Origin: Melioribacter sp.
GTDB lineage: Bacteria > Bacteroidota > Ignavibacteria > Ignavibacteriales > Melioribacteraceae
Length of the DNA stretch: 42,179 nucleotides
Direction: 5' to 3'
Assembly: GCA_012026935.1 (NCBI GenBank)
Contig: VEPI01000093.1
Span: 1 to 42,179, forward strand
This document shows, in pieces, positions 1-42,179 of this stretch. Below the pieces are notes generated by a model. The model did no database searches and was not told where the DNA came from. It saw only the letters and a list, made by a program, of their open reading frames with translations. Numbering within the stretch: position 1 is the first letter of the stretch; each line of letters begins with the position of its first letter. Both the position numbers and the translations under genes were made by a program.

Positions 1-702
1 ATAAGATTTCCAATCATTGTAATCGAAATGCCACCATTCAAATTCGTAAACAGTAAATCCTTCGCTTTCCATTTCGGTTCGGAGTAAGTCGCGGAGATTT
101 CTTTGTTCATCGGTTCCGCCGTTATAATTCGGGTAAGCCCGCTCGGACATTTCATCGTAAAGACTCGGCATCACAACAGGCTTTCCGGTTTTAAGATCTA
201 AGAGAGTAAGATCAACAGCGCATCCGCGGTTATGTCTTGAACCTTTTAACGGATCGGCAACAAATTTTTTTGAATCATCCGGAGTAGCATCCCAAAAAAC
301 TTTTGTAATATACCACGGACGGTATGCATCGTGTATTAGTAAACCGTAACCCTTAGACTGCAATTTTTTATTTACACGCACAACTGCTTCTGCGGCGGGT
401 CTTTGTAAAAATGCTCTTGCCTGACTGTATAAAGGTGTACTTAGAAAATTATTATTTGTTGCATAACGGATATCAAGGCGGATGGTTGAATCAAGTTTTA
501 CTAATTCAACAAGATCTGCTTTCTTAAACTCTCCAATCTCAACAGGTGGGGAAGCGGTTAATGCTTCTGCAATTAATTGATCAACAGGACGAAGAGGAGT
601 GATGTTAACATTCTGCCCGCTTGAACATGCCGGTAGAGTAATGAAAAAGGAAAGGAAGATAATTTTTATAATAGAATTTCCGGTAGATCTGTTATTCCGC
701 AT
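1..702 (-). CDS. ddpX: D-Ala-D-Ala dipeptidase (VanX family) lipoprotein, C-terminus cut by window edge
   Basis: Zinc dipeptidase of the VanX/DdpX family (peptidase M15D), which splits D-Ala-D-Ala and is expected at the cell envelope. I translated 234 codons from an ATG at 702 down to base 1 without a stop. Residues 1-26 are a lipoprotein signal with lipobox LPAC (Cys26). AYRPW at 126-130 supplies the substrate-binding Arg128. SRHNRGCAVD at 155-164 is the SxHxxGxAxD zinc motif (His157, Asp164). FEWWHFDY near 221-228 gives the catalytic Glu222 and third zinc ligand His225. An AAGGA sequence lies about 11 bases before the ATG. No vanA/vanH-like gene is adjacent, so peptidoglycan peptide recycling or scavenging is more likely than vancomycin resistance. 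Family assignment is confident; only the last few residues are missing. Confidence 0.93.
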   Translation of the reverse strand, partial: MRNNRSTGNSIIKIIFLSFFITLPACSSGQNVNITPLRPVDQLIAEALTASPPVEIGEFKKADLVELVKLDSTIRLDIRYATNNNFLSTPLYSQARAFLQRPAAEAVVRVNKKLQSKGYGLLIHDAYRPWYITKVFWDATPDDSKKFVADPLKGSRHNRGCAVDLTLLDLKTGKPVVMPSLYDEMSERAYPNYNGGTDEQRNLRDLLRTEMESEGFTVYEFEWWHFDYNDWKSY

Positions 703-870: not shown

Positions 871-951
871 CCTTCGTTTTTTGCGCCGTTAAAAAGGGTG
901 AGTAAACTCTAAATTAATTATATTTATACAGAGATAATTCGCATAAGAACT

Positions 952-2319
952 ATGTACCGGCAAAATGCACAAAAAAATATTGTTGTAATTGGCGGCAATG
1001 CTGCTGGCCCGGCTGCGGCGGCAAAAGCTAAACGCATCGCTCCCGATTTGAACGTTTTAATGATCGAAGCGGGAGAGTTTATTTCCACGGGCACGTGCGA
1101 GCTCCCGTACGTTCTTTCTGGTGAAATTAAAAATTATGAAGATATTGTTTTCTTCAGTGCGGATTCATTCCAAAAAGAAAAAGGTGTTAAGATTCTCACA
1201 TCTCACTTTGTTGAAAAGATAGACAGGAATAAAAAAAATCTTACTGTAAAAAATCTTAAAGACGGAAATAAATTTGAACAGCCGTATGATAAACTTATCT
1301 TATGCACCGGCTCTAATGCAAAATCAATTCCGTCAATTCCAAATAATCTTTCAAATGTTTTTACTCTCAAATCTGTTAGCGACCTGATTAATATTAAAAA
1401 TTATTTAGAACGGAATAATGTCCGCAATGTTCTTGTTATCGGTGCAGGATATATCGGTTTGGAAACGGCAGATGCGCTTAAAACTCTAGGTTATTCGGTA
1501 ACAATTTTAGAAAAAGAAAATCTGCCTATGCCGGGACATGAAGATGAGACGCGTAATTTGATCCTCGATCTTCTTGAGCAGAATAATATTGAGTTTACCG
1601 GTGAAGCAAAAGATTATAGAGTTAAACAAGACGGACAGAAATTCTTAAATCTAAAATTACAGGGAAGAGTTCTTGAATATGATCTTGTACTTCTCTCCGT
1701 TGGATTTGAACCGAATAATAATCTGGCAGTCACATCAAAACTTGGTATTGGTAAATTTGGCGGGATTACTATTGACCAAAGATTAAAAACGAATGATCCG
1801 AATATTTATGCTGCGGGTGACTGCATCGAAGTTATCAATCGCCTCACAAGCAAACCGGATTATATCCCGCTTGCAACAATTGCTCAGCAGACGGGACATA
1901 TTGCCGGTGAGAATGCAGCGGGTGGAAATTCGCAAGTTCATCCGTTCGTAAAAAATATTGCGGTAAAGATTTTCGGAAAGACTTTGGTATCCGTCGGATT
2001 GAATTCCGTCGAAGCGAAAAAATATTTTCATAACATCGGAGAAGTTCATGCTGTAATTCCGAATCTTGTTAAGGTTATGCCGGATTCGGAAAATGTTTTC
2101 GGCAAGATCATCTTTGATAAAAACAGTAAACTGATTCTCGGTGCCAACTTCTTAGGAAATAGAGAAGTTGTGGGTTATGGAGATTTGATTGCATCGTTCA
2201 TATCAAACAAAATTAAAGCAGCGGAGTTGGCAAAAGTAAATTACAATTACACACCGCCGGTTTCTCCGTTTGTAAATCTTTTATCTGTTCTTGGAAGAAA
2301 AATAGAGAGTGCTAAATGA
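952..2319 (+). CDS. CoA-disulfide reductase / NADH oxidase-like flavoprotein
   Basis: A 455-residue pyridine nucleotide-disulfide oxidoreductase of the CoA-disulfide reductase/NADH oxidase/NADH peroxidase branch, cytoplasmic, using FAD and NAD(P)H. An N-terminal FAD dinucleotide fold (VIGGNAAGPAAA, about 12-23) is followed by the single redox-active Cys49 in TGTCELPY, as expected for one-cysteine enzymes of this branch. A second dinucleotide fold begins at VIGAGYIGLE (about 162). The FAD-contacting AAGDC motif lies near residue 287, and a dimerisation domain fills the last 120 residues. Its stop codon overlaps the upp start by four bases (ATGA), so the two are probably co-translated. bshC, a bacillithiol enzyme, is encoded elsewhere in the window, so the disulfide substrate could be CoA or another low-molecular thiol. 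The exact substrate cannot be read from sequence. Confidence 0.85.
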   Translation: MYRQNAQKNIVVIGGNAAGPAAAAKAKRIAPDLNVLMIEAGEFISTGTCELPYVLSGEIKNYEDIVFFSADSFQKEKGVKILTSHFVEKIDRNKKNLTVKNLKDGNKFEQPYDKLILCTGSNAKSIPSIPNNLSNVFTLKSVSDLINIKNYLERNNVRNVLVIGAGYIGLETADALKTLGYSVTILEKENLPMPGHEDETRNLILDLLEQNNIEFTGEAKDYRVKQDGQKFLNLKLQGRVLEYDLVLLSVGFEPNNNLAVTSKLGIGKFGGITIDQRLKTNDPNIYAAGDCIEVINRLTSKPDYIPLATIAQQTGHIAGENAAGGNSQVHPFVKNIAVKIFGKTLVSVGLNSVEAKKYFHNIGEVHAVIPNLVKVMPDSENVFGKIIFDKNSKLILGANFLGNREVVGYGDLIASFISNKIKAAELAKVNYNYTPPVSPFVNLLSVLGRKIESAK

Positions 2320-2953: not shown

Positions 2954-5128
2954 ATGGAACTGACGATTAGCATAAAACACCAGCGGATGCTTGAAGATCT
3001 TTTGAAGATCTGCAAAAAGAATCTTCCATCCGTTAATGAAGCGCTTATAAAAAAAGCTTTTCAGTTGAGCTATGAGTCGCATAAAAATGATTTCCGTGCA
3101 TCGGGTGAACCGTATTTCAATCATCCGTACGAAGTTGCAATGATAGTTGCACGCGAAATTCCTCTTGATGATATCTCAGTAGTTAGCGCACTTCTTCACG
3201 ATGTAGTTGAAGACAGTGATATTAGTCTGGATTTTATTTCGAAAGAATTTAGCAAAGAAGTTGCAGAAATAGTTGACGGCGTTACTAAAATAGGCGGAGT
3301 ATTCAAAGGGCAGGAAATTACTCAGGCAGAAAATTACCGCAAGATGCTTCTTTCAATGGTAAAGGATGTTCGTGTAATTCTTGTAAAGTTCGCAGACCGT
3401 CTTCACAACATGCGTACGCTTGAGTTCGTTCACCCGCAAAAGCAAAGAAGAATTGCAAAAGAGACTTTGGAAATTTATGCACCGTTCGCTCACCGTTTCG
3501 GTTTGGGAATTTTAAAATGGGAAATGGAAGATCTTTCTTTCAAGTATCTAAACAAAGAAGCTTACGATGATATTGCGAACAAAATAAAAAATACACGCAA
3601 AGAAAGAGAATCATTTATCTCACGGTTTTCAAAACCGATTACTGAAAAACTGAACGAGCATAATATTAAATACGAACTTGGCGGGAGACCAAAGCATCTT
3701 TACAGCGTTTACAGGAAAATGATAATTCAAAACCGTCCGTTTGAAGATATATATGATCTTCTTGCTATAAGAATTATTTTGGAAAGCGACGACGCTAACG
3801 AATGTTATTATGTACTTGGAATTATTAATCAACTTTACAAACCGATTGCCGATCGTTTCAAAGATTTTATTTCCATCCCTAAGAAAAATAATTACCAATC
3901 AATTCACACAACTGTAATCGGTCCGGATGGTAAATTAGTCGAAGTTCAAATAAGAACAAGAAAGATGCATGAGATTGCAGAGCGTGGTGTTGCGGCTCAT
4001 TGGAAATATAAAGAGAACAGATCAACAGACGATAAAGATCTTGAGGAATGGGTTAGCTGGATACGTGATATTTTTGAACATGCTTCCAAAGATGAAGCGA
4101 CAAAAGAAATCTTAGCAAGTTTCAAACTAAATTTATACCAGGATGAGATTTACATCTTTACGCCGAAAGGTGATCTAAGAAGGCTGCCTTTAAACTCAAC
4201 TCCTGTTGATTTTGCATTTGAGATTCACAGCAACGTAGGTTATAAATGTATCGGTGCAAAAATAAACGGCAAGATTGTTCCGCTTGATACCGTAATTCAT
4301 AGCGGTGATCAAGTTGAGATTATTACGTCGAAGAATCAGCATCCTAATAAAAGCTGGCTGCAGTTCGTTCAGACGCACAAAGCAAAGAACAATATCCGCA
4401 AATACTTAAATAAAGAAGAAGAGAAACTTCTTGATTCCGGCAAAGAAATTTGGGAAAGGAAAATTAAAAAATTAAAACTCTCTTTTACTGCGGATGATAT
4501 TACAAAGCTTGTACGCAAACTTAAGTTCGATAACAACCGGCAATTTTTTAGAGCGATTGCGCAAGACAAAGTAAACTTAGATGAGATATTAAATCCCACG
4601 GCGCCGGAAGAAAAAGAAGCATCAGAAGTTGCATTTGATAAATTTGCAAACATTGCTCGCAACACTGCCGGCGGAATTGTTGTTGAGGGCGATTCAAAAG
4701 GTTTTGCTTACACTTATGCAAAATGTTGTAATCCAATTCCCGGGGATCAAGTTGTTGGTTATGTAACAATTGGAGAAGGGATAAAAATTCATCGTAAGGA
4801 TTGTAAGAACTTGATAACGATGATTAAGGCAAATGAAGAACGGTTGGTGCCGGTTAATTGGCCAAAAACAAACGGAGCTTTCTTCGTAGCAGGTTTAAGT
4901 ATTAGAGGGGACGATGTTCCCGGAATCTTAAAAGACATTTCAAACAGTATTACTACTTATCAAAACACAAATATTAAGTCTGTAAACATTACTACAAATG
5001 ATTCGATGTTTAGGGGAACGATTACGGTTTATGTTAAAGATTTGGAACACTTAACAAAATTAATTGAGCGATTAAAAAAGAACCGCGGAATCTATACTGT
5101 TGAAAGATTCGACGCAGAGAGTCAATAA
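2954..5128 (+). CDS. rel: bifunctional (p)ppGpp synthetase/hydrolase (Rel/SpoT)
   Basis: Long RelA/SpoT homologue (724 residues) that makes and degrades the stringent-response alarmone. The N-terminal HD hydrolase domain has His57 (NHPYE) and His82-Asp83 in LLHDVVEDSD, so hydrolase activity is expected. The synthetase domain carries RFKD at 301-304, the basic RxKD signature of bifunctional enzymes rather than the ExDD of monofunctional RelA, followed by NYQSIHTTVIG. A TGS domain begins near 390 (IYIFTPKGDLRRLP), a conserved Cys-Cys segment (AKCCNPIPGDQVVGYV) lies near 595, and an ACT domain occupies about 650-720. No strong Shine-Dalgarno precedes the ATG. ruvX follows within 14 bases. Confidence 0.96.
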   Translation: MELTISIKHQRMLEDLLKICKKNLPSVNEALIKKAFQLSYESHKNDFRASGEPYFNHPYEVAMIVAREIPLDDISVVSALLHDVVEDSDISLDFISKEFSKEVAEIVDGVTKIGGVFKGQEITQAENYRKMLLSMVKDVRVILVKFADRLHNMRTLEFVHPQKQRRIAKETLEIYAPFAHRFGLGILKWEMEDLSFKYLNKEAYDDIANKIKNTRKERESFISRFSKPITEKLNEHNIKYELGGRPKHLYSVYRKMIIQNRPFEDIYDLLAIRIILESDDANECYYVLGIINQLYKPIADRFKDFISIPKKNNYQSIHTTVIGPDGKLVEVQIRTRKMHEIAERGVAAHWKYKENRSTDDKDLEEWVSWIRDIFEHASKDEATKEILASFKLNLYQDEIYIFTPKGDLRRLPLNSTPVDFAFEIHSNVGYKCIGAKINGKIVPLDTVIHSGDQVEIITSKNQHPNKSWLQFVQTHKAKNNIRKYLNKEEEKLLDSGKEIWERKIKKLKLSFTADDITKLVRKLKFDNNRQFFRAIAQDKVNLDEILNPTAPEEKEASEVAFDKFANIARNTAGGIVVEGDSKGFAYTYAKCCNPIPGDQVVGYVTIGEGIKIHRKDCKNLITMIKANEERLVPVNWPKTNGAFFVAGLSIRGDDVPGILKDISNSITTYQNTNIKSVNITTNDSMFRGTITVYVKDLEHLTKLIERLKKNRGIYTVERFDAESQ

Positions 5129-37075: not shown

Positions 37076-38254
37076 ATGAAGAAATCTATTTTTTTCTTAT
37101 TAATAATTTTTTCTGCAGTAATATCTGCACAAAATATTGTTAACACTCTTGCAGCAGGTGGAATTTTCTCTATTATAAATGGTGCCAATACCTATTTCAC
37201 TGTTAAACAATCCACCGGTTTGGTTGGAATAGGCACAAATGCTACTGATCCAAAAGCACAGCTTGAAATTGGCGGAACAGACGGTTTACTTGTAAGAGGT
37301 ACTATAAATTCAGGAACCGCGCGAGCATTAGGCGCCGGTATAAGACTCCATTGGTACCCAAGAAAGGGCGCATTTAGAGCCGGCATGGCAGAAACAACAT
37401 ATTGGGATGATGACGGCAGTTCATATCCTAAGATGGCATTGTATTCATGTGCCATTGGATATCAACCGCGCGCTACGGGTGTAGCATCATTTGCTCTTGG
37501 GGCGTATAGCAAGGCAACTGGGGATTATTCTTTATCAGCAGGGTCTTACAGCGAGGCAAGCGCATCTCATGCGATTGCAATTGGAACGCAGGTTTATGCA
37601 AGCGGAATTTATTCCATTGCTATGGGTTCTGGAGCCAATACAAACGGTAAAGACGGTGCTGTGGTTATTGGTGACGATACATATTTCCAAACTGCTTATG
37701 CCGCAGCAGATAACCAATTAACAATGCGTTTTAGCGGCGGTTATCGCCTTTGGTCTTCTTACCCCGATTCAACAGCCGGCGTTTATATGCGGCATGGTCA
37801 AAGCGGCTGGTCGAATTATTGTGATAAAAATATGAAAGAGAATTTTGAACCGGTTGACGGAGAGTGGGTACTAGGAAAAATAAAGAATATGCCTATAACG
37901 AAATGGAATTATAAAAAAACCGATCCAACAGAAAAATATGTTGGCCCGGTATCCCAGGATTTTTACGCAGCATTTCATTTGAATGGAACCGATAGTCTCG
38001 GAATAAATTCTATTTCCATCGACGGTATTAACATGGCAGCAATTAAAGCTCTTGAAGGAAGAACATCCGAGATGAAAGCCGTTATTGATTTATTAGTTAA
38101 GGAAAATAAGGAATTGAAAGAGCGGCTTTCAAATGTAAGCAATGTAAACGATGAACTTCTGGAATTGAGAAAACTGAAAGCTGAATTACAAGAGCAATTG
38201 AAAATCGTTAAAGCAAAAAACGAAAGGGAAGATGTTGTTCTGATTTCTAAATAA
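37076..38254 (+). CDS. YadA-head-like surface protein with S74 intramolecular chaperone domain
   Basis: 392 residues. A signal peptide ends near ISAQ (residue 19). Residues about 128-200 hold YadA-head-like repeats (ATGVASFALGAYSKATGDYS, ASASHAIAIGTQVYASGIYS, IAMGSGANTNG), which form trimeric left-handed beta rolls. Residues 249 to about 330 are a peptidase S74/endosialidase chaperone domain: CDKNMKENF, NMPITKWNYK, YVGPVSQDFYAAF, ISIDGINMAAIKAL. The C-terminal 60 residues are a coiled coil (KENKELKERL and onward). S74 domains fold trimeric fibres and then cut themselves off before a Ser; here that residue is Cys249, with the Lys partner at 254. Probably a trimeric exported fibre or adhesin. 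Start of a two-gene surface cassette. Confidence 0.87.
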   Translation: MKKSIFFLLIIFSAVISAQNIVNTLAAGGIFSIINGANTYFTVKQSTGLVGIGTNATDPKAQLEIGGTDGLLVRGTINSGTARALGAGIRLHWYPRKGAFRAGMAETTYWDDDGSSYPKMALYSCAIGYQPRATGVASFALGAYSKATGDYSLSAGSYSEASASHAIAIGTQVYASGIYSIAMGSGANTNGKDGAVVIGDDTYFQTAYAAADNQLTMRFSGGYRLWSSYPDSTAGVYMRHGQSGWSNYCDKNMKENFEPVDGEWVLGKIKNMPITKWNYKKTDPTEKYVGPVSQDFYAAFHLNGTDSLGINSISIDGINMAAIKALEGRTSEMKAVIDLLVKENKELKERLSNVSNVNDELLELRKLKAELQEQLKIVKAKNEREDVVLISK

Positions 38255-38265
38255 AAATTTGCTGT

Positions 38266-38281
38266 TTAGCTAGAAAGCTAA
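38266..38281 (+). promoter_or_regulatory. small perfect hairpin touching the start codon of the FN3 gene
   Basis: TTAGCT (38266-38271), loop AGAA, AGCTAA (38276-38281). The last base of the stem is the A of the ATG, and the stem covers the place where a ribosome binding site should be. No clear Shine-Dalgarno exists otherwise. Confidence 0.4.
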
Positions 38282-41200
38282 TGAAGAAATATTGTTTTTT
38301 ATTGATTTGTTTTGTCGCAGTTCAATGGACCTATGCGCAAAGTACAATTACTATTAATCTCGGTACATCAATTAGCATAGGTGCTGGGAGCGCTGTTACT
38401 GCCGGATATAGAGACGGAACGTTGACGAGTGCCGGAACTTTTAATGCAAGATCAATTACATTTGATCCGGTTGCAACTGCAGCAACATCTATAATACAAA
38501 CAAGTTTTAATGCAAATTGGAATGCTTCCGCTGGAGCTGCAGGATATAAGTTGGATGTATCTACCGTTTCAGACTTTTCATCATTTGTAACCGGTTATCA
38601 AAATTTAGAAGTCGGAAACGTTACCACTTATTCTGTAAGCTCAAATTTGTCTGCAGGATCAACTTATTACTATCGCTTACGAGCATATGATATAGATGGA
38701 ATAACAGGTTATTCAAATGTAATTACAGTTGTAATGTCACCGCCAAACCCTGTCGCAACTGCAGCAACAAATATTACCGATATTAGTTTTAGTGTTAATT
38801 GGAATAGTGTAACAGGTGCAACAGGTTATTACCTGGATGTTTCAACCGATCCTGGATTTGGAGCTGGAGCTTTTGTAGTAGGATTTGAAAATAAAGATGT
38901 CGGTAATGTTCTTACATATTCAGTTACAAGTTTAGCTGGTAATACAACTTATTATTATAGAATAAGGGCTTACAATGCCAGCGGTACAAGCGGTAATTCA
39001 AACACAGTTACAATCTTAACTGCACCGCCTGCACCGACTGCAACTGTAGCTGCCCCTATTGGGCAAACAAGTTTTTCTGCAAATTGGGATGCATCTGCCG
39101 GTGCAACAAAATATTATCTTGATGTATCAACTGTTTCTAATTTTTCATCATACGTTACCGGTTATCAAAATCTGGATGCAGACAACGCTACAACCTATTC
39201 TGTAAATACAAACATAAATGCAGGAACGACCTATTACTACCGTCTCCGTGCATCTAATGGAACTAATACAAGCACAAATTCAAATACAATAAATTTAATC
39301 TCTGTTCCCCCAAATCCAACATCAACCGCTGCATCAAATATTCAAATTACAAGTTTTGATGCAAACTGGAATGTCTCTACAAGCGCAACAAAATATTTTC
39401 TGGATGTTTCAACTGATGCCGGTTTTGGTGCAGGTGCTTTTGTAATAGGCTATGAAAACAAAGATGTAGGAAATGTTACTACCTTTTCTGTAAATACAAA
39501 TCTTTCCGGCGGTATAACATATTATTATAGAGTTCGCGCAAACAATACTGGTGGAACAAGCGGAAATTCAGGATCAATTACCGTTCTAACCATTCCGCCG
39601 GCTCCTGTTGCAATAGCTGCATCAACAATCACACAAACAAGTTTTTTTGCAAACTGGAACGCTTCCACAGGAGCTACAAAATATTATTTGGATGTATCAA
39701 CAGATGCAAGTTTTGGCGCCGGTACTTTTGTGACTGGTTATCAAAATTTAGATGTTGATAATGTAACGACATTTTCGGTGAATACTAATCTTACTGCAGG
39801 TACAACTTATTATTACAGAGTTAGAGCAAACAATGCAACTGGAACAAGTAATAATTCAAACGGAATTAGCTTGGTCACTATTCCGCCAAATCCAACAGCT
39901 ACTTCAGCAACAAATATTACAGAAAATAGTTTCAACACAAATTGGAATTCGTCAGCTACAGCAACAGGTTATCGGTTAGATGTTTCAACAGATGCAGGCT
40001 TTGGTGCCGGAACTTTTGTCGTTGGATTTCAAGATAAAGATGTTGGTAATGTTACCACATATTCGGTAACCGGCTTATTGGCTAACACGACTTATTATTA
40101 TAGGGTGAGAGCTTACAATGGAAATGGGACTAGTGGAAATTCGGGAAACATAACACAGTTAACTGCACCTGCTGTTCCAACAGCAACCGCAGCAACATTA
40201 ATTACACAAACAAGTTTCGATGCAAATTGGGATGCTTCAATAGGAGCTACTGGTTACCGTTTAGATGTATCAACAGATAACGGTTTTGGTGCAGGTACTT
40301 TTGTTACAGGTTATCAAGATAAAGATGTTGGTAATGTATTAACATTTTCGGTGAATACATATTTAGTAGAAGGAACAACATATTATTATAGAGTTCGATC
40401 TTACAATGCAGGAGGGACAAGTACAAACTCAGGTACAATTAATCTGAAGACAATTCCTGATGCGCCGATTGAATCTTCAGCGACTTTGATAACATCAACA
40501 AGCTTCCAAGCAAACTGGAATGCATCAACCGGCGCTTCAGGTTACAGATTAGATGTCGCTACTAATTCAGGTTTTGGCGCTGGAACATTTGTAGCTGGTT
40601 ACGATAATAAAGATGTTGGCGATGTAACAAATTCTGCAGTCAATACTAATCTTACTGACGGAACTACATACTATTACAGAATACGTGCATATAACAGCGG
40701 AGGAACGAGTAATAATTCTGGAACCGTAACTGTAATTACAGTTCCGGCAGCTCCGTCAGCAAATGCAGCATCGTCTGTGCAAACAACAAGTTTCACTGCT
40801 AATTGGAATTCAAGTTCAGGCGCAAGCGGTTATACTCTCGATTTATCTACCGATTCAAATTTTGGAAGTTATTTTGATGGATATAATAATTTTGATGCCG
40901 GAAATGTAACTTCACTTAATGTGACCGGATTATCAAGCGGGACAACATATTATTATAGAGTTAGAGCGTATAACGTCAGCGGATCGAGCGGATACTCATC
41001 GGTAAAAACAGTTATAACAATTCCTTCTGCACCGGTAGCAATTGCAGCTACATTAATTACCGGAACAAGTTTTTCAGCAAATTGGAACTCATCATCCGGT
41101 GCCTCCAAATATTATCTTGATGTAGCAACTGACAATACGTTTTCATCTTTTGTAGCAGGATTTAATGATAAGGATGTTGGAAATAATACAACTCAATCAG

Positions 41201-42179
41201 TCACTGGACTAACTGAAGGCACCGTTTATTATTATAGGGTAAGAGCAAATAATGCAAGCGGTACAAGTACAAATTCAAATACTAAAAATGTAAAAACAAT
41301 TCCACCGGCACCGGTAGAACAAGCTGCTTCTTCAATTACAAATAATAGTTTTTCGGCAAATTGGAATTCATCTACTGGGGCTTCGGGATATTATCTTGAT
41401 GTTGCAACTGATAATTTATTTTCGAGTTTTGTTGCCGGATTTAATGGGAAAAATGTTGGAGATGTTACATCATATACTGTAACCGGACTTTCGGAAAGTA
41501 CATCATATTATTATAGAGTTAGAGCATATAATACCGGAGGTACAAGCGATAATTCAGGAACTGTTAATCCAATTACACTTTCTAATTCACTTAGTGAGCC
41601 ATCAGTTCAGCCGGCATCTGCTGTAACATCTACAAGTTTTAGTGCAAACTGGAATTCTGTTACTGGAGCAACTAAGTATTATTTAGATGTTTCTACAGTT
41701 TCAAATTTTGCAACGTTCGTTGTAGGATGGCAGAATGTTGATGTTAATAATGTTTTAACATATTCAGTAAATTCAAATTTATCAGCTGGAAATACTTACT
41801 ATTACCGAGTTAGAGCAGCTAATGCAACAAGCACAAGTGATAATTCAAATAATGTTTCTGTTAAAACAATTCCATCAGCACCAGTTGAACAAGCTGCCTC
41901 TGCTATAACTGCATCAAATTTTGATGCAAATTGGAATGCTTCAACAGGTGCAACCGGATATTATATTGATGTAGCTACAGACAATGGATTTACTTCCTTT
42001 GTATCGGGATTTAGCAATCGTGATGTTGGTAATGTTGTTACATATACAGTAACTGGTTTAGCAAGTAGTACGCAATATTTTTACAGAATCCGAGCATACA
42101 ATACCGGCGGAACGAGTAGCAATTCCGGAACAGCTGATGCAACAACTTTAGCAGGGGGTACTGTTGTCGCTACTGCAGC
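38281..42179 (+). CDS. secreted fibronectin type III repeat protein, C-terminus beyond the window
   Basis: At least 1,299 codons without a stop, running off the right edge. A signal peptide (MKKYCFLLICFVAVQWTYAQ) is followed by a short lead (about 21-62) and then 13 fibronectin-III-like units of 93-96 residues. Each unit has a conserved Trp in NWN/NWD, a Y-LDVST or Y-LDVAT strand, a TYYYRxRA (tyrosine corner) segment and a G-TS-NS end, joined by short Pro-rich linkers. The units continue in one frame throughout. Similar FN3 arrays sit on extracellular adhesins or enzymes of Bacteroidota-type bacteria; a catalytic domain or T9SS sorting domain may lie further on, since the last residues (AGGTVVATAA) leave the repeat pattern. 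Probably co-expressed with the S74 protein 26 bases upstream. Confidence 0.9.
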   Translation, partial: MKKYCFLLICFVAVQWTYAQSTITINLGTSISIGAGSAVTAGYRDGTLTSAGTFNARSITFDPVATAATSIIQTSFNANWNASAGAAGYKLDVSTVSDFSSFVTGYQNLEVGNVTTYSVSSNLSAGSTYYYRLRAYDIDGITGYSNVITVVMSPPNPVATAATNITDISFSVNWNSVTGATGYYLDVSTDPGFGAGAFVVGFENKDVGNVLTYSVTSLAGNTTYYYRIRAYNASGTSGNSNTVTILTAPPAPTATVAAPIGQTSFSANWDASAGATKYYLDVSTVSNFSSYVTGYQNLDADNATTYSVNTNINAGTTYYYRLRASNGTNTSTNSNTINLISVPPNPTSTAASNIQITSFDANWNVSTSATKYFLDVSTDAGFGAGAFVIGYENKDVGNVTTFSVNTNLSGGITYYYRVRANNTGGTSGNSGSITVLTIPPAPVAIAASTITQTSFFANWNASTGATKYYLDVSTDASFGAGTFVTGYQNLDVDNVTTFSVNTNLTAGTTYYYRVRANNATGTSNNSNGISLVTIPPNPTATSATNITENSFNTNWNSSATATGYRLDVSTDAGFGAGTFVVGFQDKDVGNVTTYSVTGLLANTTYYYRVRAYNGNGTSGNSGNITQLTAPAVPTATAATLITQTSFDANWDASIGATGYRLDVSTDNGFGAGTFVTGYQDKDVGNVLTFSVNTYLVEGTTYYYRVRSYNAGGTSTNSGTINLKTIPDAPIESSATLITSTSFQANWNASTGASGYRLDVATNSGFGAGTFVAGYDNKDVGDVTNSAVNTNLTDGTTYYYRIRAYNSGGTSNNSGTVTVITVPAAPSANAASSVQTTSFTANWNSSSGASGYTLDLSTDSNFGSYFDGYNNFDAGNVTSLNVTGLSSGTTYYYRVRAYNVSGSSGYSSVKTVITIPSAPVAIAATLITGTSFSANWNSSSGASKYYLDVATDNTFSSFVAGFNDKDVGNNTTQSVTGLTEGTVYYYRVRANNASGTSTNSNTKNVKTIPPAPVEQAASSITNNSFSANWNSSTGASGYYLDVATDNLFSSFVAGFNGKNVGDVTSYTVTGLSESTSYYYRVRAYNTGGTSDNSGTVNPITLSNSLSEPSVQPASAVTSTSFSANWNSVTGATKYYLDVSTVSNFATFVVGWQNVDVNNVLTYSVNSNLSAGNTYYYRVRAANATSTSDNSNNVSVKTIPSAPVEQAASAITASNFDANWNASTGATGYYIDVATDNGFTSFVSGFSNRDVGNVVTYTVTGLASSTQYFYRIRAYNTGGTSSNSGTADATTLAGGTVVATA
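38467..42150 (+). repeat. 13-unit fibronectin-III-like tandem array
   Basis: The conserved Trp codon of each unit begins at 38518, 38800, 39085, 39367, 39655, 39943, 40228, 40516, 40804, 41083, 41362, 41650 and 41932. Spacings are 279-288 bases, all multiples of three. Units are alike in protein but differ at many synonymous sites, so the array is old rather than freshly duplicated. The linker before unit 12 is longer (contains SNSLSEPSVQ). Confidence 0.9.

Follow-up and report, generated by a model that had tools for sequence, protein, structure and literature searches.

A cysteine at the predicted cleavage position of an S74-type intramolecular chaperone domain in a fibre-like protein of Melioribacter

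In the S74 intramolecular chaperone domains described so far, a lysine activates a serine hydroxyl, which attacks the preceding bond (PMC3828593, PMC4690869). The cleavage residues reported are S1264 and K1269 in the phage T5 protein (PMC4690869) and S587, K592, Y615 and Y617 in MyRF, where Y615 and Y617 line the site (PMC8326128); in MyRF, the stalk is reported to make no contribution to the cleavage site. According to the mutant study, MYRF S587C retains cleavage on a western blot, and S587A, K592H, K592R and K592M show none (PMC3742440). We found no natural cysteine form of the domain in print in the open-access literature.

We analyzed a gene with a cysteine at the corresponding position in a 42,179-nucleotide stretch of Melioribacter sp. 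DNA (contig VEPI01000093.1 of assembly GCA_012026935.1), referred to as the window. Its features are as follows:

37076..38254, forward strand: gene for the whole protein, 392 aa, including the stop codon (ORF list and translation)
37076..37132, forward strand: signal-peptide-like N-terminus, residues 1-19, MKKSIFFLLIIFSAVISAQ, without a lipobox cysteine (by eye)
37472..37552, forward strand: residues 133-159, the best of three stretches of YadA_head repeats (Pfam PF05658, E 5.1e-6)
37820..37975, forward strand: Peptidase_S74 / intramolecular chaperone core, residues 249-300 (Pfam PF13884, profile positions 1-53 of 58)
37820..37822, forward strand: TGT codon of Cys249, the predicted cleavage position (translation; equivalence by profile and structure alignments)
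37835..37837, forward strand: Lys254 at +5, the putative general-base lysine (invariant column; aligned with MyRF K592)
37904..37912, forward strand: Trp277-Asn278-Tyr279 (+28, +30; aligned with MyRF Y615 and Y617)
38009..38248, forward strand: C-terminal helix, residues 312-391 (113-192 of the model), a presumed trimeric coiled coil (AlphaFold2 model)

Translation of 37076-38251 gives the site context GWSNY-C249-DKNM-K254-ENF, and the PF13884 match (E 3.1e-8; 34.2 bits against a curated cut-off of 22) opens exactly at the cleavage position, with Cys249 at position 1 of the profile. The original prediction, that Cys249 replaces the S74 cleavage serine with the spacing to Lys254 kept, is borne out by the translation and by this profile position. 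The motif CDKNMK spans 37820-37837; the start given earlier, 37822, falls on the third base of that cysteine codon. The computed fragment from Cys249 to Lys392 (144 aa, 16.35 kDa) also agrees with the roughly 16 kDa C-terminal piece foreseen. A profile search of the genome returned this S74 domain only, and Cys125 is the sole other cysteine in the protein. A sequencing error is an unlikely source of Cys249, since relatives carry cysteine at the same site (two copies in one, a single copy in several) with TGT and TGC codons mixed; the existence of these relatives likewise led us to reject the view of a lone odd sequence. We describe the product as a fibre with a YadA-type head and a C-terminal S74-type chaperone, which would be secreted and is probably trimeric.

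The gene is flanked upstream by a 517-aa ORF that is oxidoreductase-like by eye and downstream (38281-42177) by a giant fibronectin-III repeat protein with 12 fn3 stretches in Pfam, whose frame runs past the window to the contig end. No phage-like genes were recognized by eye among the window ORFs (Pfam was run on the downstream gene alone), and the neighbors appear chromosomal by eye; the S74 gene thus looks like that of a bacterial secreted fibre and not a phage tail gene. The pair of S74 gene and fn3-repeat gene recurs in loci L080, L081 and L082; in L081 the genes upstream of it differ. In locus L343, which reaches the contig end, the downstream repeat gene contains a run of N beyond the window, at about 3971-4273 of that locus. 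The last residues of the gene's frame at the contig end are LYQNYPN, a sequence that we take to resemble a type IX secretion sorting signal.

Three independent alignments, by profile, structure and family, agree in assigning Cys249 to the predicted S74 cleavage position, mapping C249/K254 onto MyRF S587/K592 and endosialidase NF S911/K916, and C249 onto T5 pb1 S1264. Modelled with AlphaFold2 (mean pLDDT 88.7, pTM 0.67), residues 200-392 adopt the S74 chaperone fold with a C-terminal helical stalk, and the matches of this model include 7dc3, 3gud, 3gw6 and 4uw8, at moderate scores. Its best Foldseek match is the MyRF ICA, with a probability of 1.00 and an E of only 1.6e-3, which is moderate. 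VIA-align returned 7dc3 (Z 6.3, rmsd 3.9, 111 aligned), 3gud (Z 6.0), 3gw6 (Z 5.7) and 4uw8 (Z 5.7), moderate values of 5.7-6.3 at which the chaperones are interspersed with coiled-coil matches of similar score. Model positions 50..134, where 50 is C249, pair with 1264..1393 of T5 pb1 (4uw8), and positions 54..134, where 54 is residue 253, with 915..1057 of the endosialidase (3gw6); these ranges are end points only, and placing C249 at 911 and K254 at 916 assumes no gap between them. The profile of alignment A2 matched the MyRF sequence (7dc3) at E 0.001, with the site on S587(A), K254 on K592, and W277/Y279 on Y615/Y617. The protein encoded at 37076-38254 has no stalk arginine at -14, the place of the oxyanion Arg in K1F and T5; R239 lies at -10.

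The survey of cysteine frequency called for by the original prediction was run on two samples. The first comprised 181 distinct relative domains, gathered by searching the class, the order and the phylum with the window domain or alignment A1, together with fetched stretches and a named-genome scan (best 80 of 451 relatives, giving 78 loci). In this set, which was drawn by similarity to the window domain and is biased towards it, 164 domains have Ser at the site, 15 have Cys, one has Leu and one is unaligned there. For the broader sample, we searched 247 genomes from the phylum with PF13884, which matched in 68; among the matches listed, 130 rows were read (30 given loci and 100 fetched), three partial alignments were dropped, and all 127 domains that begin at the profile start have Ser with Lys at +5. 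The resulting 0/127 leaves out the window, G140 (two copies) and G039, Cys-type members of the same list that had been counted before, as had some Ser rows. The genomes of six chosen loci yielded 24 S74 matches, 17 Ser and 7 Cys; the one new Cys domain (L209) brings the cellular Cys-type domains seen to 16. The framing of the survey as Bacteroidota-type holds for part of them, since Cys forms from several lineages also include Delongbacteria, one planctomycete and viral contigs. Ser-type and Cys-type paralogues stand side by side within single genomes. Cysteine at the S74 site is a rare yet recurrent, real variant.

Three further observations concern individual relatives. The S74 gene is tandem-duplicated in one Melioribacter genome (L080, 2284-4698), and both copies are Cys-type. 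The sole domain with neither Ser nor Cys (L063, the same place as L037) carries Leu in place of the nucleophile, has Met at +5, and is apparently a dead form. In 17 of 159 scanned S74 tails, all Ser-type (for example L119, L131, L139, L151, L116 and L172), the coiled coil leads directly into a membrane-spanning segment that ends in basic residues; this resembles the layout of MYRF, and self-cleavage would free such a fibre from the membrane.

As a control in viral contigs, we collected stretches with the pattern x-D-x-R-L-K-x-N-I (CGN and CTN codons), in which the first codon alone varied, and scored them with an S74 model trained solely on sequence 3' of the motif. Cysteine occupied the first position in 24 stretches, Thr in 4, Ala in 8, and Ser in at least 120 each for TCN and AGY codons. 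The model accepted 11/24 Cys, 0/4 Thr and 0/8 Ala stretches and, among the matches listed, 114/121 TCN and 111/120 AGY stretches; five more Cys stretches (L346, L348, L351, L354, L360) are S74-like by eye yet fail the model. In this viral pattern test the site held Ser and seldom Cys, and Thr, Ala or other one-step residues were not found. Such a Ser/Cys-only pattern is what a conserved nucleophile would predict, and not relaxed selection. A short form, with fewer than 80 residues after the cut and no long helix, makes up 123/225 Ser-type viral S74 domains among the matches listed and is often preceded by a Gly/Ala-rich hydrophobic stretch. Cysteine is not enriched in this form (11/16, or 6/11 by the strict count, vs 123/225 for Ser; Fisher p 0.31 and 1.0), and we rejected a tie between the two. 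Close relatives in viral contigs numbered 0 with the single protein as query and 1 with alignment A1; distant matches comprised 5 phage and 14 plasmid records.

Purifying selection acts on the window S74 domain (dN 0.11 and dS 1.49 against the first copy of L003, other pairs being saturated at silent sites), and cysteine is retained among relatives while its codon switches between TGT and TGC. Lysine is present at +5 in all 15 Cys-type domains of the 181 set, and the Lys254 column is one of eight invariant ones among the 53 sequences of A2, where residues 277-279 are nearly invariant (at least 90%). Conservation of this lysine could be structural instead of catalytic.

On a tree of 75 rows with the site column removed, cysteine needs eight changes, at least five of them forced by starred branches. 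A longer-stretch tree (33 rows, 150 columns) unites 12 Cys and two TCN-Ser rows in one group (96/93; 89/92 on rebuilding), nests the Cys-type L040 among AGY-Ser relatives (99/96; AU p 0.02 for a placement outside), and joins two Cys and one Ser paralogue of Delongbacteria tightly (100/99). With test groups chosen after tree inspection, a single origin of the 12 main-group Cys rows that excludes the two Ser rows was rejected at p 2e-16, a value driven mainly by the Delongbacteria trio; placing L033 outside the group was not rejected (p 0.29), nor was pairing the two Delongbacteria Cys rows without the Ser-type L088 (p 0.10). The Ser-type form L082/L033, from the window's genus, has the same neighbors as the window's Cys-type gene (an oxidoreductase-like ORF before, a repeat protein after), so that a single locus can hold either Ser or Cys. 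These phylogenies point to repeated Ser/Cys exchange, which may have run in either direction, Cys to Ser reversion being one candidate. The two residues would then be interchangeable at the S74 site, and their repeated swapping among relatives suggests that the Cys form likely still cuts.

We consider it probable that the window domain is an active Cys-Lys variant of the self-cleaving domain. The S74 chaperone would first trimerise the fibre chain; the Cys249-Lys254 dyad, in place of Ser-Lys, would then cut the Tyr248-Cys249 bond and release the 144-residue, 16.35 kDa C-terminal piece. This reading is favored by the alignment of C249 with known cleavage serines, the lysine kept in 15/15 Cys-type domains, the purifying selection on the domain, the recurrence of cysteine, the lack of Thr and Ala, the Ser/Cys paralogues, and the activity of MYRF S587C cited above. 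Against it we count that this mutant, judged by western blot, belongs to a distant relative, that a thiol nucleophile could be oxidized outside the cell, that the -14 arginine of K1F and T5 is missing, that the fold scores are moderate, and that the lysine may be conserved for structural reasons. The original prediction had offered a cysteine mechanism, slow cleavage, or a domain that stays attached; the first is best supported, given the constant lysine, the near-exclusive use of Ser or Cys, and the mutant result in the MYRF study.

A slow or dead cutter, whose chaperone folds and trimerises the fibre but is not released, so that the mature protein retains the coiled coil, strikes us as rather unlikely. 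The rarity of cysteine, with 0/127 profile-start domains in the broader phylum sample, speaks for it, as do the predicted helix reaching residue 391, a possible permanent trimer tip, and the 0/17 Cys-type members among membrane-tailed relatives, a weak point with just 15 Cys rows in the set. However, a site released from catalysis would be expected to change to Ala, Thr, Gly or Asn, which was not seen; the single exception, Leu in L063, has lost the lysine too, whereas every Cys-type domain in the set retains it, and PMC3742440 reports the equivalent mutant as active.

That Cys249 is kept for a disulphide, metal site or redox switch is much less probable still, although the protein appears exported. 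A second cysteine lies 64-65 residues 3' of the site in 6 of the 15 Cys-type proteins (L005, the second copy of L003, L006, L084 and two of L086), but this partner is not conserved: the 402-aa frame of L004 contains no cysteine apart from the one at the site, and the window protein adds just Cys125. We rejected a disulphide role on this ground, and Ser-type relatives at the same locus argue against any such duty. The Ser-type L008 shares the second cysteine 64-65 residues after its site. Cleavage at Ser246 or Ser243 instead, the kind of error that the earlier interpretation had itself allowed for, is scarcely credible: both lie within six residues upstream of Cys249, but neither has Lys at +5, Ser246 is not conserved, with Thr, Ala or Val at its place among the other Cys-type relatives (WSNYC, WTNYC, WAAVC, WVALC), and both the profile and the fold comparisons put C249 in register with the known cleavage serines.

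Single-base steps connect the TCN and AGY serine codons only via Cys (TGY) or Thr (ACY), which makes cysteine a candidate bridge. Site codons in the 181 set are 125 TCN, 39 AGY, 15 Cys and 0 Thr, and in the 127-domain phylum set 111 TCN and 16 AGY; one 28-row group combines 9 TCN-Ser, 6 AGY-Ser and 13 Cys (TGY) rows, with no Thr. It is conceivable, and we put it forward tentatively, that a functional Cys-Lys form allows the active-site serine to cross between TCN and AGY one base at a time; direct double changes are a candidate alternative route. Brenner is said to have proposed in 1988 that hydrolases with one class of serine codon are connected to those with the other through cysteine enzymes, and if the codon-bridge reading is true, these domains would be a live case of that proposal. 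Should the Cys forms cut, they would be extant intermediates of active-site serine-codon switching, measurable rather than reconstructed. One further idea, taken from record titles, is that Cys forms may be linked to oxygen-poor habitats. Sister proteins that differ naturally in having Ser or Cys, in some cases within a single genome and in one pair at the same locus within a genus, make it possible to ask how a thiol alters a Ser-Lys self-cleaving domain, for better or worse; in the open-access literature found, this question has so far been met just by the engineered MYRF mutant. Annotation by the presence of Ser would mislabel Cys-type S74 domains as dead.

Among known systems, MyRF is the best PDB match in sequence and fold, and equivalents of its K592, Y615 and Y617 are present in the window protein; it differs as a eukaryotic transcription factor with a transmembrane helix, a natural Ser, and Pro before the cut, where the window protein has Cys249 and Tyr248. 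The endosialidase NF chaperone (3gw6, PF13884) shares the Pfam family, the Lys at +5, and the hairpin with C-terminal helix, but uses Ser911 as nucleophile and has stalk Arg897, whereas the window protein has Cys249 and no Arg at -14. The chaperone of the T5 L-shaped tail fibre pb1 (4uw8) aligns from Cys249 = 1264 onward; it belongs to a phage tail fibre and has Ser1264, with Arg1250 14 residues before it, in place of Cys249. YadA-type trimeric autotransporter adhesins have the YadA_head repeats in common with the window protein, which also matches the UspA1 and invasin heads in the PDB by sequence. These adhesins carry a membrane anchor; in the window protein no anchor family was found by Pfam at E up to 1, and it ends instead in the S74 chaperone and helix. 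Since the position of the nucleophile serine is occupied by Cys249 (TGT), we file the window domain, on its alignments, as a homologous cysteine variant of PF13884 and not as a serine peptidase.
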